A stretch of DNA of 40,474 bases from Prochlorococcus sp. AG-363-C02 (GTDB lineage: Bacteria; Cyanobacteriota; Cyanobacteriia; PCC-6307; Cyanobiaceae): the NCBI GenBank assembly GCA_003278345.1, contig QCFH01000014.1:1-40474 (forward strand), in the 5' to 3' direction. Every line of letters starts with the position of its first letter. Position 1 is the first letter of the stretch. The notes below the pieces were generated by a model, which was not told the DNA's origin, searched no databases, and worked only from the letters and a program-made list of their open reading frames with translations. The position numbers and the translations under genes are program-made. Positions 19,685-40,474 of the stretch are shown in pieces.

Positions 19685-19792
19685 AACAATAGGAATTTAA
19701 ACCTTCCTAATTTGATCATAAGCATTTATTTGAATTTATTAATCAACGATAAATTTATTTATAACAACCTCAGGAACAAATGGCACGCAATA

Positions 19793-33603: not shown

Positions 33604-34692
33604 TAACCAGCATTTAACAACGTCATCGCCCCAACATCCATCTGGAGAATGAAACCCATTATGCCCTCCATGATTAGTTAAAACAATTTCTAAATTAGAA
33701 GCATATTCTCTTGACCTACAACTTTTATATAAATTCTCTGTAGCTTCTGAGGGAACCCAAGGATCATCAAGAGAGTGAATTAGAAGAATATTTTTGACAG
33801 TATTAATTTTGTAAGGCCACATTGAATGAATAGGAGAAGCTCTCTTGTAATAATCATCGACATTTTTAAAACCCCATCTTGGAGATGTAATAACCGAATC
33901 AAAGTCTTTAATAGATGAAATGACAGGGGAAATTTTACTCCTCGTTTTAATAAGAGCTTCTCTCTCTGTATCACTGATGCCAAATGGATCGTTAAGTGTC
34001 TGTTTAATCAACCTATTCAATAACCATTTTTGATAAAAACTATTACGAGTTCTTTCGATAGAAGTACTTGATGCTGCTAAATCAAGTGGACTACTTATGC
34101 ATACCAATGCATCTAATAAATGTCGGCATGACAAATCGTTAATTGAGTCTAAACATGCATTTAATAATATTGTTCCTCCTAGCGAAATCCCTACCCCAAA
34201 AAGTGGTACAGAGGTTTTCTCATTTATACTTAATGAATTAGAAATTTCTCTTGCTTTTTCTAATGCGGGAAATATATCACTATTACAACTAGCTGAATAT
34301 GTTCCGGCTGCAAAGTTCCTACCTGGATCAGCTCCGCGCAAATTCAACCTCATAACTGCAAAGCCTGCGTTTATAAGAACCCCTGCCATACGCCTAAGGC
34401 CCCTTCTTCGACTAGAACCACCCAATCCATGAACCATTAAAACCAAACCCTTAATTTGAGAAATTTTTAAAGGGTAGTTTATAAAAGCAATTAAGTGTTC
34501 TTTGTTTAAATCTCCTCGACGTCTTGAAGGAATGGCTATTTGAACCGTTTCAGTATTTGAAAGATATAATTTTTCATCAATAAATGTATCCCTAAGTGTT
34601 TGAAGATCACCCCCTATCCAAGGGAAACGTTGAGAAAAAGGAGGCAATCCTAATTGCTCAAGAATATAATTCTCTTTTTTAGGCTTTAGCAC
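33577..34692 (-). CDS. YheT-type alpha/beta hydrolase
   Basis: A 371-residue alpha/beta hydrolase: V-H-G-L-G-G-S-S (87-94), a R-L-N-L-R-G-A-D-P-G strand-loop, nucleophile S170 in G-V-G-I-S-L-G-G, and T-N-H-G-G-H-N-G-F near the C-terminus with the catalytic His. The YheT/EMB8 family is common and its substrate is uncertain. GTG start inside the last codons of pntB (overlap 14 bases), so it follows pntB on the same transcript. Confidence 0.85.
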   Translation of the reverse strand: MLKPKKENYILEQLGLPPFSQRFPWIGGDLQTLRDTFIDEKLYLSNTETVQIAIPSRRRGDLNKEHLIAFINYPLKISQIKGLVLMVHGLGGSSRRRGLRRMAGVLINAGFAVMRLNLRGADPGRNFAAGTYSASCNSDIFPALEKAREISNSLSINEKTSVPLFGVGISLGGTILLNACLDSINDLSCRHLLDALVCISSPLDLAASSTSIERTRNSFYQKWLLNRLIKQTLNDPFGISDTEREALIKTRSKISPVISSIKDFDSVITSPRWGFKNVDDYYKRASPIHSMWPYKINTVKNILLIHSLDDPWVPSEATENLYKSCRSREYASNLEIVLTNHGGHNGFHSPDGCWGDDVVKCWLLKAASHVF

Positions 34693-35364
34693 TAATGCCT
34701 AATTCCTTTAATTCTAAAAGAAGGTCTCCTAAAACTTTCTTTGCATCTCCAAAAAGCATAGATGTATTCGCCAAGTCAAATAAATCATTCTTAATACCTG
34801 AATAACCAGCACTCATTCCCCTTTTTATAACAAATACTGTGCGTGCTTCTTGAACATCTAAAACAGGCATTCCAAATAATGGTGAACTTGGATTATTCTT
34901 TGCCTGAGGGTTTACAACATCGTTAGCACCAAGGACAAGAACAACATCTGTTGCAGGGAATTCAGGATTAACTACATCCATTTCTTTAAGTTGCTCATAA
35001 GGAACATCTGCTTCAGCTAAAAGAACATTCATATGTCCTGGCATTCGACCAGCAACAGGATGGATAGCATATATTACATCTATACCATTTCCCTCCAAGG
35101 CCCTAGTCACTTCTCTAAGAGTATGTTGTGCCTGAGCAACAGCCAAGCCATAACCAGGAACGATTACAACCCTTTCAGCAGCTTCTAAAGTTAAAGCACA
35201 TTCTTCAACACTACAGCTTGTAATGTTGACATATTCACCAGAATCATTTCCACCTGAAGGAGTAGAGCCTATTGCACCACCAAAAAGAACTGATAATAAA
35301 GACCTATTCATTCCGTTACACATGACTTTAGTTAGTATTAATCCAGCGGCTCCAACCATTGCTC
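34663..35364. repeat. 702-bp exact direct repeat, copy 1 (in pntB)
   Basis: Identical base for base to 38608-39309 at a constant offset of 3945. It covers the C-terminal half of pntB (residues about 245-472) and the first ten codons of the YheT-type gene. This copy is in natural context: pntB and the hydrolase are both intact here. Confidence 0.97.
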
Positions 35365-36097
35365 CAGCAACTATAAGTAATTGGCTCCCAACAACAAAAC
35401 CCGCAGCAGCTGCCGCTACACCTGAGTAGCTATTTAATAAAGAAATAACTACTGGCATATCAGCACCTCCAATAGGCAGTGTTACACCTATACCCAGTAA
35501 AGATGAACTTACAATCAATAGCCAAAGTTCACTATTACTTCCTCCAAGAAGTCCAGCAATTGCAACCAAAGAAATAGCTGATAATGCAATATTTATTACA
35601 TGTCTAATTTTGTTTTGCATCCATGCTGGTGTAGAAAGCCAGCCCTTAAGCTTAGCCATTGCAACTATTGACCCCGTAAAGGTTATGGAGCCAACAAAAA
35701 CAGAAATAACAATAGAGATTGTCTCAACAAAGCCAAACGAAGAATCAGTCGCAGGGAAAAATCGAACAGCCAAAGCAACTAGCAATGAAGACATTCCACC
35801 ACATCCATTAAAGAGAGCCACAGTCTCTGGCATTGCTGTCATTGCAACTCTTTGAGCTGTTATGGCTCCCAAAAATCCCCCCAAAGCAGAACCGAGAATT
35901 ATCCAAACCCATGCTTCGGGTGATTCCACTAGGCTTCCAAAGGAACCAATCAAGACTCCCACAACAGAAATAGCCATTGCTGTTGCTGCAAGCCTATTCG
36001 CCTCTCGAGCAGAGCGAACCTTGGAAAGTCCTTTTATACCTAAAGCTAAAAGCAAAATAGCTAAAAGATCGATCCAAAATTTGAATATCAAGGTCAT
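34679..36097 (-). CDS. pntB: NAD(P) transhydrogenase subunit beta
   Basis: 472 residues: a membrane part of about eight or nine helices (residues 1-260), then the soluble NADP(H)-binding domain III with V-I-V-P-G-Y-G-L-A-V-A-Q-A-Q-H and G-R-M-P-G-H-M-N-V-L-L-A-E-A, and V-L-G-A-N-D-V-V-N-P-Q-A. Uses the proton gradient to move hydride from NADH to NADP+. Third gene of the pntA/membrane-alpha/pntB operon, on the minus strand, 13 bases after the membrane alpha subunit. The C-terminal half is duplicated elsewhere in this window. Confidence 0.97.
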   Translation of the reverse strand: MTLIFKFWIDLLAILLLALGIKGLSKVRSAREANRLAATAMAISVVGVLIGSFGSLVESPEAWVWIILGSALGGFLGAITAQRVAMTAMPETVALFNGCGGMSSLLVALAVRFFPATDSSFGFVETISIVISVFVGSITFTGSIVAMAKLKGWLSTPAWMQNKIRHVINIALSAISLVAIAGLLGGSNSELWLLIVSSSLLGIGVTLPIGGADMPVVISLLNSYSGVAAAAAGFVVGSQLLIVAGAMVGAAGLILTKVMCNGMNRSLLSVLFGGAIGSTPSGGNDSGEYVNITSCSVEECALTLEAAERVVIVPGYGLAVAQAQHTLREVTRALEGNGIDVIYAIHPVAGRMPGHMNVLLAEADVPYEQLKEMDVVNPEFPATDVVLVLGANDVVNPQAKNNPSSPLFGMPVLDVQEARTVFVIKRGMSAGYSGIKNDLFDLANTSMLFGDAKKVLGDLLLELKELGISAKA

Positions 36098-36110
36098 TAA
36101 TTAATTCTCC

Positions 36111-36401
36111 TTATTTACGTGTTGATTTGCGACTAAACATTGCCAACATTCTGTCAGTAACCAAAAAGCCCCCGACAACATTAAACAATGCAAACCCCAA
36201 TGAAACAGCTCCAATAATTAATAAAGGCGTTCTTCCATCTGCTGTGATAATCAATGTCAATGCAGCAAGCATTGTTATACCTGATATTGCATTAGCTCCA
36301 CTCATAAGCGGAGTATGCAAAGTAGGTGGAACTTTACCTATTAGCTCCAAACCAAGAAGACTTCCTAATAAGAGCACCCAGAATGCCTCAGCAAATTCCA
36401 T
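36111..36401 (-). CDS. NAD(P) transhydrogenase alpha subunit, membrane part
   Basis: 96 residues with three hydrophobic helices: F-W-V-L-L-L-G-S-L-L-G-L-E-L-I-G-K, P-L-M-S-G-A-N-A-I-S-G-I-T near the middle and G-A-V-S-L-G-F-A-L-F-N-V-V-G-G-F-L-V. This is the piece split from PntA in cyanobacteria. ATG at 36401, three bases after the pntA stop, so co-translated. The M-S-G-A-N-A-I-S-G motif matches the conserved PntA membrane helix. Confidence 0.95.
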   Translation of the reverse strand: MEFAEAFWVLLLGSLLGLELIGKVPPTLHTPLMSGANAISGITMLAALTLIITADGRTPLLIIGAVSLGFALFNVVGGFLVTDRMLAMFSRKSTRK

Positions 36402-36404
36402 TTC

Positions 36405-37544
36405 TTAGAATCCTCCTAAATTCATTACTTGAGTATGGCGAATTTCACCATCCTTGCTTATTAATGCCCCATCAATTAATTCATCCTCTGTATTAAGTAC
36501 AAGTTTTCCCTCACTAATTAGAGGAGTAATCAATGCTAAAAGATTCCTTGCATATAAGGCGCTTGCGTGATTAGGAACAGTACATGGTAAATCAGATGCA
36601 CCAATAAGCTTTACTCCATTCCTCAATACTGTTTCTCCTGGCTTGGTCCCTGCACAATTACCTCCTTGAGATACAGCAAGATCAACCACAACGGAACCTG
36701 GCCGCATTGCATCAAGCATATCTTCATCAATAAGACGAGGAGCTTTCTTTCCAGGTACTTGAGCAGTACAGATAACCACATCCGCCTCAGATAATTGATC
36801 TAATAACTGTTTTCGCTGAGTCTTAAGAAAGTCTTCAGAAACCTGCTTGGCATATACACCTTTGCCAGAAGATTCATCATCCAATTTTGGCGGCTCAATA
36901 AACCTTGCTCCCAAAGACTCAACCTGTTCTTTAACAGCTTGACGAATATCGCTAACAGAGACAACAGCTCCTAATCTTTTGGCGGTTGCAACAGCTTGCA
37001 AACCTGCCACACCAGCTCCTAGAACAACAACTTTAGCGGGTTGAACAGTTCCAGCTGCTGTCATCAACATTGGGAAAAATCTATCCAAAGCATTGGCTCC
37101 TAAAAGGACAGCTTTATAGCCTGCGATATTGGCTTGTGAAGAAAGAGCATCTGCTGACTGCGCCCTACTTATTCTCGGCAAAAGTTCAAGCGACAGGGCC
37201 GACAACCCATACTTTGTGAGGCTTTTTGCTAGCTCTTGATTTCCATATGGCTCCAACAATCCAATCAATATTGCTCCATGTTTAAGCTTCGATAAAAAAT
37301 CACACCCAGGGGAATTAACACACAAGACAACATCAAATTGCTTTAGAGAATCTCCATTTGCTTCAGAGAAGAAATGAGAACCTGCATTCAAAAAACTTTC
37401 ATCAGAAAAACCCGCTGCAACTCCAGCATCTTTTTCTATAGATACATTGAATCCTAAAGAAACAAGCTTTTTTACAGATTCAGGAGTTGCAGCAACACGT
37501 GCTTCACCTAAAGCAACCTCGATAGGGACTAAAATTTTAGGCAA
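36405..37544 (-). CDS. pntA: NAD(P) transhydrogenase alpha subunit, soluble NAD-binding part
   Basis: 379 residues of the NAD(H)-binding domain I: E-V-A-L-G-E-A-R-V-A-A-T-P-E near the start, V-V-V-L-G-A-G-V-A-G-L-Q-A-V-A-T-A (Rossmann loop, about 173), V-S-D-I-R-Q-A, V-V-V-D-L-A-V-S-Q-G-G-N and L-P-C-T-V-P-N-H-A-S-A-L-Y. No membrane helix, as expected for the split enzyme. First gene of the pnt operon. ATG at 37544. Confidence 0.97.
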   Translation of the reverse strand: MPKILVPIEVALGEARVAATPESVKKLVSLGFNVSIEKDAGVAAGFSDESFLNAGSHFFSEANGDSLKQFDVVLCVNSPGCDFLSKLKHGAILIGLLEPYGNQELAKSLTKYGLSALSLELLPRISRAQSADALSSQANIAGYKAVLLGANALDRFFPMLMTAAGTVQPAKVVVLGAGVAGLQAVATAKRLGAVVSVSDIRQAVKEQVESLGARFIEPPKLDDESSGKGVYAKQVSEDFLKTQRKQLLDQLSEADVVICTAQVPGKKAPRLIDEDMLDAMRPGSVVVDLAVSQGGNCAGTKPGETVLRNGVKLIGASDLPCTVPNHASALYARNLLALITPLISEGKLVLNTEDELIDGALISKDGEIRHTQVMNLGGF

Positions 37545-37674
37545 GATAAGAATGCTTATTACATTAAAGATTAAGACTGAAAAGGTTCGAAGACCAGCAT
37601 TTTTGTTGAAAAAAGCTTTTCCTTAATTGAATTTGTGGCTATGAAGAAAATGATACTTAAATTTCAAGAAGAAT

Positions 37675-38253
37675 ATGAGTCTGAAAGCAATTGAATGTCC
37701 CGACGGTGTATGCCACAGCCATCATGGTGGTCATGCTATTCCACGTGTTGCTATGCAAAAAAACCTACAGACACATGGAAGAGAGTGGTGCGAGCGACTT
37801 GCAGAAAGAATTTACGAGATGTCTGTAGACACATATTCTCAAACGGTCATGCCTAGTCTTCACTCCTCAGGTTGGCAAAGGCGTCATCTTGATTGGGAAT
37901 TTAAACTTGCTGATAATCATTCCGAACCAGATGAAACATTAGTTGAGGGAATTATTAATGCCACAGAAAGTTTTCTTCGTAGCAGTGAAGTTCATCGTTT
38001 ATTTATACAAGAACTAGTTCAAGGGACTTTCGAAGAGGCTACTGAAGACCATTTAAGGTCAAAAGCCGTTAGATCACTTATTGAAAAAGAAATAATTGCC
38101 ATGCTTGAAGAACGCAAAGAGGAGCTTATAGATCGTTTAGCTGAAAATTTATTGAACGAATCTAATGGAGACTTTAATATTTCTAGGAAAGCAGCAAATG
38201 AAGGAATCGAAGAGGTTAAAAAGTTACTTTTAAACCATTCCCAATCAATTTAG
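37675..38253 (+). CDS. conserved hypothetical protein (192 aa)
   Basis: A charged, helical soluble protein. N-terminus C-P-D-G-V-C-H-S-H-H-G-G-H-A-I-P-R (residues 8-24) with Cys8, Cys13 and several His may bind metal. The rest has R-E-W-C-E-R-L-A-E-R-I-Y and long E/K-rich helices. Divergent from the pntA gene, 130 bases apart. Known to me only as a picocyanobacterial neighbour type; no function. Confidence 0.6.
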   Translation: MSLKAIECPDGVCHSHHGGHAIPRVAMQKNLQTHGREWCERLAERIYEMSVDTYSQTVMPSLHSSGWQRRHLDWEFKLADNHSEPDETLVEGIINATESFLRSSEVHRLFIQELVQGTFEEATEDHLRSKAVRSLIEKEIIAMLEERKEELIDRLAENLLNESNGDFNISRKAANEGIEEVKKLLLNHSQSI

Positions 38254-38435
38254 ATATAGAAAAAATCGACAAAGAAATATTTTCAAATCAATTTATATTT
38301 TTCCTTAAGATTCTCAAAAGCCTAGTAAATACGTTCTATATATAAAGAATTCATTAAGACAATAATTCTATTTGTTCATAAAACCGGGTTTTGTATAAAT
38401 AAAACCTGAGAAATAACCATTGCCATGCAAAGGTA

Positions 38436-38448
38436 CCTCCATTGGAGG
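38436..38448 (+). promoter_or_regulatory. hairpin covering the ribosome-binding site of 38455 gene
   Basis: CCTCC (38436-38440), ATT loop, GGAGG (38444-38448), then ATG at 38455. The GGAGG is the Shine-Dalgarno site and the preceding CCTCC can pair with it. The 3-base loop makes it weak but possible as translation control. Confidence 0.4.
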
Positions 38449-38454
38449 AATTAA

Positions 38455-38634
38455 ATGAACAAACTCTTAAACAAAAGGATAAGTATTGCTAGCTGCTGGG
38501 CTTCAAGCAGAATTGCTTTACTTGATAGTATAGAAAATTATGAAGACAGTTATGCGATAACTCAGGAATTTCGCGAATGGATAGTATGTATTGAGAATAT
38601 AGGATCTAATATAATTCTCTTTTTTAGGCTTTAG
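38455..38634 (+). pseudogene. truncated EF-EW family small gene at the repeat junction
   Basis: Starts ATG at 38455 behind a strong GGAGG. Reads M-N-K-L-L-N-K-R-I-S-I-A-S-C-W-A-S, then Y-A-I-T-Q-E-F-R-E-W-I-V, the conserved core also found at 713-943 and 12804-12998. From base 38608 on (about residue 52) the sequence is that of the duplicated pntB block, and the frame runs into a TAG at 38632-38634. The paralogs continue for about 20-25 residues with a P-D-[ML]-T motif, which is absent here. So the 3' end is lost. Confidence 0.65.
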
Positions 38635-39309
38635 CACTAATGCCTAATTCCTTTAATTCTAAAAGAAGGTCTCCTAAAACTTTCTTTGCATCTCCAAAAA
38701 GCATAGATGTATTCGCCAAGTCAAATAAATCATTCTTAATACCTGAATAACCAGCACTCATTCCCCTTTTTATAACAAATACTGTGCGTGCTTCTTGAAC
38801 ATCTAAAACAGGCATTCCAAATAATGGTGAACTTGGATTATTCTTTGCCTGAGGGTTTACAACATCGTTAGCACCAAGGACAAGAACAACATCTGTTGCA
38901 GGGAATTCAGGATTAACTACATCCATTTCTTTAAGTTGCTCATAAGGAACATCTGCTTCAGCTAAAAGAACATTCATATGTCCTGGCATTCGACCAGCAA
39001 CAGGATGGATAGCATATATTACATCTATACCATTTCCCTCCAAGGCCCTAGTCACTTCTCTAAGAGTATGTTGTGCCTGAGCAACAGCCAAGCCATAACC
39101 AGGAACGATTACAACCCTTTCAGCAGCTTCTAAAGTTAAAGCACATTCTTCAACACTACAGCTTGTAATGTTGACATATTCACCAGAATCATTTCCACCT
39201 GAAGGAGTAGAGCCTATTGCACCACCAAAAAGAACTGATAATAAAGACCTATTCATTCCGTTACACATGACTTTAGTTAGTATTAATCCAGCGGCTCCAA
39301 CCATTGCTC
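38608..39309. repeat. 702-bp exact direct repeat, copy 2 (pntB fragment)
   Basis: Exact match to 34663-35364. The left edge cuts the small gene at 38608; the right edge cuts the NTRC-type gene at 39309/39310. The block is not flanked by a transposase, inverted repeats or target duplication. Confidence 0.97.
38624..39309 (-). pseudogene. pntB fragment (C-terminal half, duplicated)
   Basis: Reads the last about 228 residues of PntB, identical to the intact gene at 34679-36097. It lacks the whole membrane part and its own start; the first Met at 39304 is an internal one (M-V-G-A-A-G-L-I). No promoter is visible. Not expected to make a working subunit; the soluble domain III alone binds NADP(H) but cannot couple to protons. 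Confidence 0.9.
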
Positions 39310-40474
39310 AGCATCTATATCTATTTCTATTGCCTGAACATTACCTTTTAGCTCTTTAACAACTCTTTTAAGTTGAGGCTTGAGTACGTGACATGGTCCG
39401 CAGCTTGGTGATGTATATATGACTAAAAGGGGATTAGAACTCTCGTGATAAAGCTTTCTTAAGGCATAGCTACCTTTCTGCCATAATTCATTTGATTTAA
39501 AATTTTGCTCATTAGATTCCTGTACTTCAATTTCTTTTTGTATTTTTGCGGGTTCTATTTCATCTCTTTTTATCAAAGAACATAGCTCATTAGTAGATAG
39601 CCATTTTTCAGCTGCTAGAGCTGCCTTGCAACCACTTCCTGCTGCCGTAATTCCTTGACGCCATTCTGAATCTGCAAGGTCACCTGCGACATAAACTCCT
39701 TCAATTGAAGTTTCTGGCCTTCCAGGTGAAGTTATTACATATCCATTTTCAGTTAAGGATATTTGATTTTTTAAAAGTGCTGAATTTGGAGTATGTCCAA
39801 TTGCATAAAAAAGTCCTTTTGCCGCAATAGTATTTTCTTGTTTTGTGGATTTATTTATTAATTTTATTGTTTCCATCCAATTATTTCCTTCAACATCTAG
39901 GATCTCGTTTTCCCAATGGATTGTTATATCAGGATTTTTTGCCACCCGATCGGACATTGCTTTGCTTGCTTTAAGTTGATTTGATCGGACTATCAAGTGA
40001 ACATGGCTTCCATATTTTGTTAAATAAACTGCTTCTTCGCATGCAGAGTCCCCACCCCCAACTACTGCCAAAGCTTCATTGCGAAACTGGGGAGTTGCTC
40101 CATCACATATTGCACAAGCACTTATACCTTTACTCCAGTATTTCTTTTCATTTGGCAATCCTAGTTTGTTTGCACTTGCACCCGTTGCAAGAATTATCGA
40201 GTGAGTGAAAATGGTATCAACTAAAGTTTTTACTTTGAATGGAGGCTTGGAAAGGTCAATTTCTTCAGCATCAACCTCTAAAAGCTTTGTGCCCCATCTA
40301 ATTGCTTGAGCTTTAATTAAATCCATTAATTCTGGACCCATAATCCCATCTGGGAATCCTGGGAAATTCTCTACAAAAGTGGTTGTCATGAGTTGCCCAC
40401 CTGGGATTCCACCTTTAACGAAGCCAGTAATTAATAATGGTTGAAGATTTGCCCGGGCTGCATAAATTGCTGCT
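39283..40474 (-). CDS. NADPH-thioredoxin reductase fused to thioredoxin (NTRC-type), both ends cut
   Basis: The reading frame is open at the window edge (5' partial: A-A-I-Y-A-A-R-A-N-L-Q-P-L-L then G-G-I-P-G-G-Q-L-M). It carries the reductase active pair C-A-I-C-D-G, the NADPH site A-V-V-G-G-G-D-S-A-C-E-E-A and V-Y-V-A-G-D-L-A-D. A linker of about 50 residues leads to a thioredoxin domain with S-C-G-P-C-H. That domain stops after I-E-I-D-I-D-A-E-Q; beyond base 39309 the frame enters the pntB block and ends as W-L-E-P-L-D. The cis-Pro loop and last strands are lost. The intact enzyme supplies electrons from NADPH to peroxiredoxins and other targets. Confidence 0.85.
   Translation of the reverse strand, partial: AAIYAARANLQPLLITGFVKGGIPGGQLMTTTFVENFPGFPDGIMGPELMDLIKAQAIRWGTKLLEVDAEEIDLSKPPFKVKTLVDTIFTHSIILATGASANKLGLPNEKKYWSKGISACAICDGATPQFRNEALAVVGGGDSACEEAVYLTKYGSHVHLIVRSNQLKASKAMSDRVAKNPDITIHWENEILDVEGNNWMETIKLINKSTKQENTIAAKGLFYAIGHTPNSALLKNQISLTENGYVITSPGRPETSIEGVYVAGDLADSEWRQGITAAGSGCKAALAAEKWLSTNELCSLIKRDEIEPAKIQKEIEVQESNEQNFKSNELWQKGSYALRKLYHESSNPLLVIYTSPSCGPCHVLKPQLKRVVKELKGNVQAIEIDIDAEQWLEPLD

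Follow-up and report, generated by a model that had tools for sequence, protein, structure and literature searches.

A 702 bp piece of pntB that is repeated beside a flipped neighbouring gene near the end of a Prochlorococcus contig most probably stems from a copying error during DNA amplification and not from a real change in the organism. The window, i.e., the whole stretch of DNA that was analysed (40,474 bp), is the complete contig C14 of an assembly of 1,420,347 bp, which consists of 42 contigs, the smallest of 2143 bp, and is 77.15% complete. The completeness, the number of contigs and the size of the smallest one all fit a single-cell pipeline in which contigs longer than 2000 bp are retained, and the sample is probably a single amplified genome. 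From left to right, the contig comprises 38.6 kb that include a small gene cut at its end, 702 bp of pntB, the NTRC gene in reversed orientation and the contig end.

Comparison of the window with itself revealed that positions 34,663–35,364 and 38,608–39,309, both on the minus strand, form an exact direct repeat of 702 bp at an offset of 3945 bp with no mismatch, which confirms the duplication of the 3′ part of pntB reported in the preliminary description. No other exact repeat of at least 25 bp, direct or inverted, was found in the window, and a search of the own genome with the 702 bp piece gave two 100% matches, both within this contig. Copy 1 (34,663–35,364) is the 3′ part of the native pntB and the source of the duplicated piece, as indicated by the exact repeat, by the intact open reading frame to which it belongs (34,679–36,097; 472 aa; PF02233, E 1.8e-167) and by its colinearity with relatives. 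Copy 2 (38,608–39,309), identified by the repeat, the own-genome search and Pfam, is 100% identical to copy 1 and direct with respect to it. It has coding capacity for the last 226 aa of pntB only, corresponding to PF02233 profile positions 240–454 of 456.

Copy 2 lies between two truncated genes. On its left, the first 51 codons of the small gene (38,455–38,607, plus strand) are cut at junction 1 (38,607/38,608), a same-strand jump back by 3945 bp that was recognised from the exact repeat together with the comparison with relatives; the homolog in the relative locus L094 has 80 aa, by a count made by eye on the L094 translation. On its right, junction 2 (39,309/39,310) is an inverted join of pntB to the NTRC (thioredoxin reductase–thioredoxin) gene, recognised by comparison with relatives. 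The NTRC arm (39,310–40,474, minus strand), delimited by the order of the locus in relatives and by Pfam, carries a pyridine nucleotide-disulphide oxidoreductase domain and a partial thioredoxin domain (PF00085, profile positions 16–62 of 103); the name NTRC is taken over from the preliminary description and is based on the domains found. According to counts by eye on the L094 translation, the arm is devoid of ~47 C-terminal residues, and the first ~20 residues of the protein fall beyond the contig end. The contig ends 1165 bp past junction 2, and the rearranged part occupies its final 1.87 kb.

The gene order of relatives bears on the nature of the right-hand flank. Two sets of 12 loci were compared, with L004 and L005 common to both, and over both sets 16 distinct loci were informative; the small gene is followed by NTRC on the same strand in all 16, and the order of the window occurs in none. 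In the first set, the strand of 39,310–40,474 is opposite to that of the rest in 10 of the 12 loci, L102 and L103 having no NTRC match. In the second, 8 of the 12 loci gave a tblastn match to the small gene, which shares the strand of NTRC in all of them, and the other four have no small-gene match. From the best 80 of 579 loci in the related-loci scan, five were compared: L004 and L005 gave information on gene order, and L003, L006 and L020 had no small-gene match. In 11 of the 16 loci, the gene at 37,675 is present upstream as well, again on the same strand; the 1.5-kb flanks of the other five gave no match to it. As judged from this comparison, the flank at 39,310–40,474 is a third piece of the rearrangement and not native context. 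The truncation of both neighbouring genes stands as it had been described, but the implied native position of the right-hand flank does not.

Read alone, the window with its direct copy could be taken for a 702-bp insertion, by simple duplication or transposition, into an otherwise native small gene/NTRC neighbourhood, the arrangement that the preliminary description had implied. The comparison of gene order with relatives goes against this picture, since NTRC is inverted with respect to 16/16 informative relatives and a single insertion cannot produce this order. Additionally, no direct repeat of 3–15 bp abuts the two outer flanks of the piece, in agreement with the earlier statement that there is no target duplication, and the piece comes from a metabolic gene and has no mobile-element gene inside it. 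A 702-bp insertion is thus hardly credible.

The inverted arm is the genome's own DNA, since its distance from relatives is similar to that of the remaining sequence (81.5 vs 82.8% identity to the relative G006 and 75.3 vs 75.4% to G001). In the other 38.6 kb of the window, the pieces matched to G006 are all in forward orientation. Between positions 19,700 and 25,100 the alignment to G006 and G001 is broken into short pieces with small open reading frames between them, a stretch that varies among relatives; the 13.5 kb that follow are colinear. The native continuation of the small gene and of NTRC was searched for in the rest of the assembly. In G006, 226 bp (63,508–63,733) lie between the small-gene piece and the NTRC arm. 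Neither these 226 bp nor the 3 kb beyond NTRC had any own-genome match besides the edges already in the contig, and a DNA search of the own incomplete assembly gave no second copy of the NTRC stretch. Another genome of the genus, G005, likewise has an assembly break in the interval from the small gene to NTRC: contig C30 (at its start, L102:1–75) stops 75 bases beyond the small-gene match, and C46 (at its start, L113) begins just before NTRC. G005 probably corresponds to the named genome AG-436-K22, as an identical match was obtained for its NTRC locus L113 and for the named locus L003. The break in the same interval may be due to chance, or the spot may be hard to amplify or assemble.

The preliminary description had left a choice between a very recent event and an artefact. 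The inverted class of junction 2 and the position of the rearrangement at a contig end, beside sequence that is absent from the assembly, strengthen the artefact side. The three segments would very probably represent a two-step template-switch chimera, formed during strand-displacing (phi29 type) whole-genome amplification, which the assembler then retained next to a gap. On the minus strand of the window, a growing strand would have followed NTRC in the usual direction over 1165 nt or more, after which its 3′ end would have loosened and primed on the opposite strand inside pntB, ~4.6 kb off, giving the inverted junction 2. After this switch, 702 nt of pntB would have been copied, and the growing end would then have jumped to the small gene, ~3.9 kb away on the same strand, giving the direct junction 1, and continued through the normal chromosome. 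We infer the direction and order of these switches, as well as their occurrence in the tube rather than in the cell.

In phi29 multiple displacement amplification (MDA), displaced 3′ ends prime on other displaced strands close by, as described by Lasken and Stockwell (2007, PMC1855051). Their set of 475 chimeras contained 406 inverted ones, of which 337 spanned less than 10 kb; direct joins under 10 kb made up 11 of the 475, and about one chimeric junction was present per 22 kb of MDA product. The dominance of the inverted type was also reported for human DNA, with a mean of 91.36% of single-end chimeras (PMC6515389), and chimeras with two or more parts are also reported for human DNA (PMC4595205). 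In a Prochlorococcus single-cell data set, such amplification was followed by SPAdes assembly and contigs over 2000 bp were kept; for benchmark cultures, a rate of 1.5 misassemblies per 100 kbp was given (PMC6122165).

The features of the window can be set against those of phi29 MDA chimeras as given in PMC1855051. The segments come from one genome, as they do there, and of the two junctions, junction 2 is of the mostly observed inverted class and junction 1 is direct. The preliminary description had regarded same-orientation joins as the less common class of chimera, which fits junction 1 but leaves out the right junction, of the common class. The partners of the junctions lie 3945 bp and ~4.6 kb apart (the latter between the pntB and NTRC ends of junction 2 in G006 coordinates), within the range under 10 kb in which most partners fall, and the assembly is incomplete and fragmented. 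Unlike the typical case, a single product carries two junctions, one of which belongs to the rarer direct class; moreover, amplification of the present sample is itself deduced, and microhomology is not established at the junctions. Several observations argue for an amplification chimera: the contrast between the relatives, where the small gene and NTRC share a strand in 16/16 informative loci, and the window with its inverted NTRC and its pntB piece, the spacing of the junction partners, the confinement of the rearranged part to the end of the contig with a native continuation that has no match in the own genome, the forward orientation of the remaining 38.6 kb, the absence of mismatches in 702 bp and the origin of the inverted arm from the genome's own DNA.

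On the other hand, some points weigh against an amplification chimera. It needs a rare direct join (11/475 in PMC1855051) plus an inverted join 702 bp away. For human MDA data, the inter-part distance of chimeras is reported to peak at 250–300 nt, well below 3.9 and 4.6 kb (PMC4595205). One study found that most chimeric reads stayed out of single-cell contigs (PMC6162917), and in a benchmark the assemblies of single Prochlorococcus marinus cells were generally those with the fewest misassemblies (PMC5519541).

Complementarity of 2–21 nt was taken as the criterion for the junctions of MDA chimeras. The native sequence past the breaks is absent from the assembly, and 10 relatives were used as stand-ins. 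At junction 2, pntB shares 2–3 nt with the stand-in sequence in 10/10 relatives; at junction 1, 0–7 nt are shared, with 0 in five of the 10. Candidate near-homologies were rejected as support for priming: TATAG-TGCT at junction 2 (9 of 10 positions) was equalled by 3293 of 36,882 control placements, AGAATATA near junction 1 (8 of 8) by 2300 of 36,682, and the near-homology in the other direction at junction 1 by 16,550 of 36,800. Near-homology is thus not above background, which counts against an amplification chimera, and junction microhomology, as far as the stand-in sequences can indicate, is unproven. The 0–7 and 2–3 nt shared with the stand-in sequences also bear on the idea that the assembler alone made the joins and that no chimeric molecule existed. 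Such a misjoin would suit the position at a contig end in a fragmented assembly; however, the few nucleotides shared by the joined parts are far below an assembler word, and no run of N marks a join (0 N in the window), so that a misjoin of this kind is very unlikely.

A genuine rearrangement in one wild picocyanobacterial cell has to be weighed as well. Template switching during replication in vivo, by microhomology-mediated break-induced replication (MMBIR) or fork stalling and template switching (FoSTeS), is expected to give the same anatomy. The short duplicated segment, with an inverted join on one side and a direct one on the other, resembles the products of these mechanisms, and zero mismatches permit a recent event, i.e., a complex rearrangement in two steps, with one inverted and one direct switch, that broke NTRC and the small gene and was caught before its removal by selection. 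However, it would have broken a gene whose place next to the small gene and whose orientation are conserved in 16/16 informative relatives, with no other NTRC copy by DNA search of the incomplete own assembly, and it is found where the contig breaks off and the adjoining sequence is missing. With at most 3 mismatches allowed, junction 1 and junction 2 were each found in the own genome only (1/14) and in 0/13 other genomes of the genus, a set of one genome per species, all of other species than the source, in which a clone-specific event would not show. Unlike MMBIR/FoSTeS products, the arrangement is thus absent from the other genomes examined, breaks a conserved gene and borders a gap at a contig edge, and a rearrangement in the cell appears improbable. 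No exact match to either junction was found in viral contigs; two Acinetobacter phage records match pntB at 68% and are not relevant here.

If the arrangement is an artefact of amplification, the second pntB fragment, the truncated NTRC and the truncated small gene at the contig end are unfit as evidence that genes were duplicated or lost in this lineage, or that a strain-level rearrangement took place in it. The combination of a perfect repeat, an adjoining inverted arm at a contig end and a missing native continuation provides a simple check for such contigs.

Further chimeras were looked for by a census of exact repeats of at least 31 bases in the window and in 73 stretches of the assembly, which comprised contig ends and complete small contigs (409,408 bases). 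The census gave 30 rows, the largest being planned overlaps of the fetched stretches (904 and 610), the 702 of the window and then 224, 209 and 129. No other exact duplication of about 702 bp was found in the 73 stretches, planned overlaps excepted, and mixed strands with respect to 400 kb of G001 occurred in 0/16 testable stretches (those with at least 1000 bp of matches, out of 72). That no second chimera was seen in these sampled stretches also counts against an amplification chimera in the window. The census also brought to light short exact repeats of up to 224 bp that are common to three contigs, C3 (L134:3867–4564), C23 (L153:3127–3350) and C11 (L182:5701–5909). Those of C3 are located at small open reading frames that start with MNN(E/N)ELT and contain a GG motif, which is reminiscent of double-glycine leader peptides. 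Additionally, the start of C7 (L138:1–129) and the end of C10 (L181:5872–6000) overlap by 129 identical bases, which resembles unresolved joins of an assembly graph.
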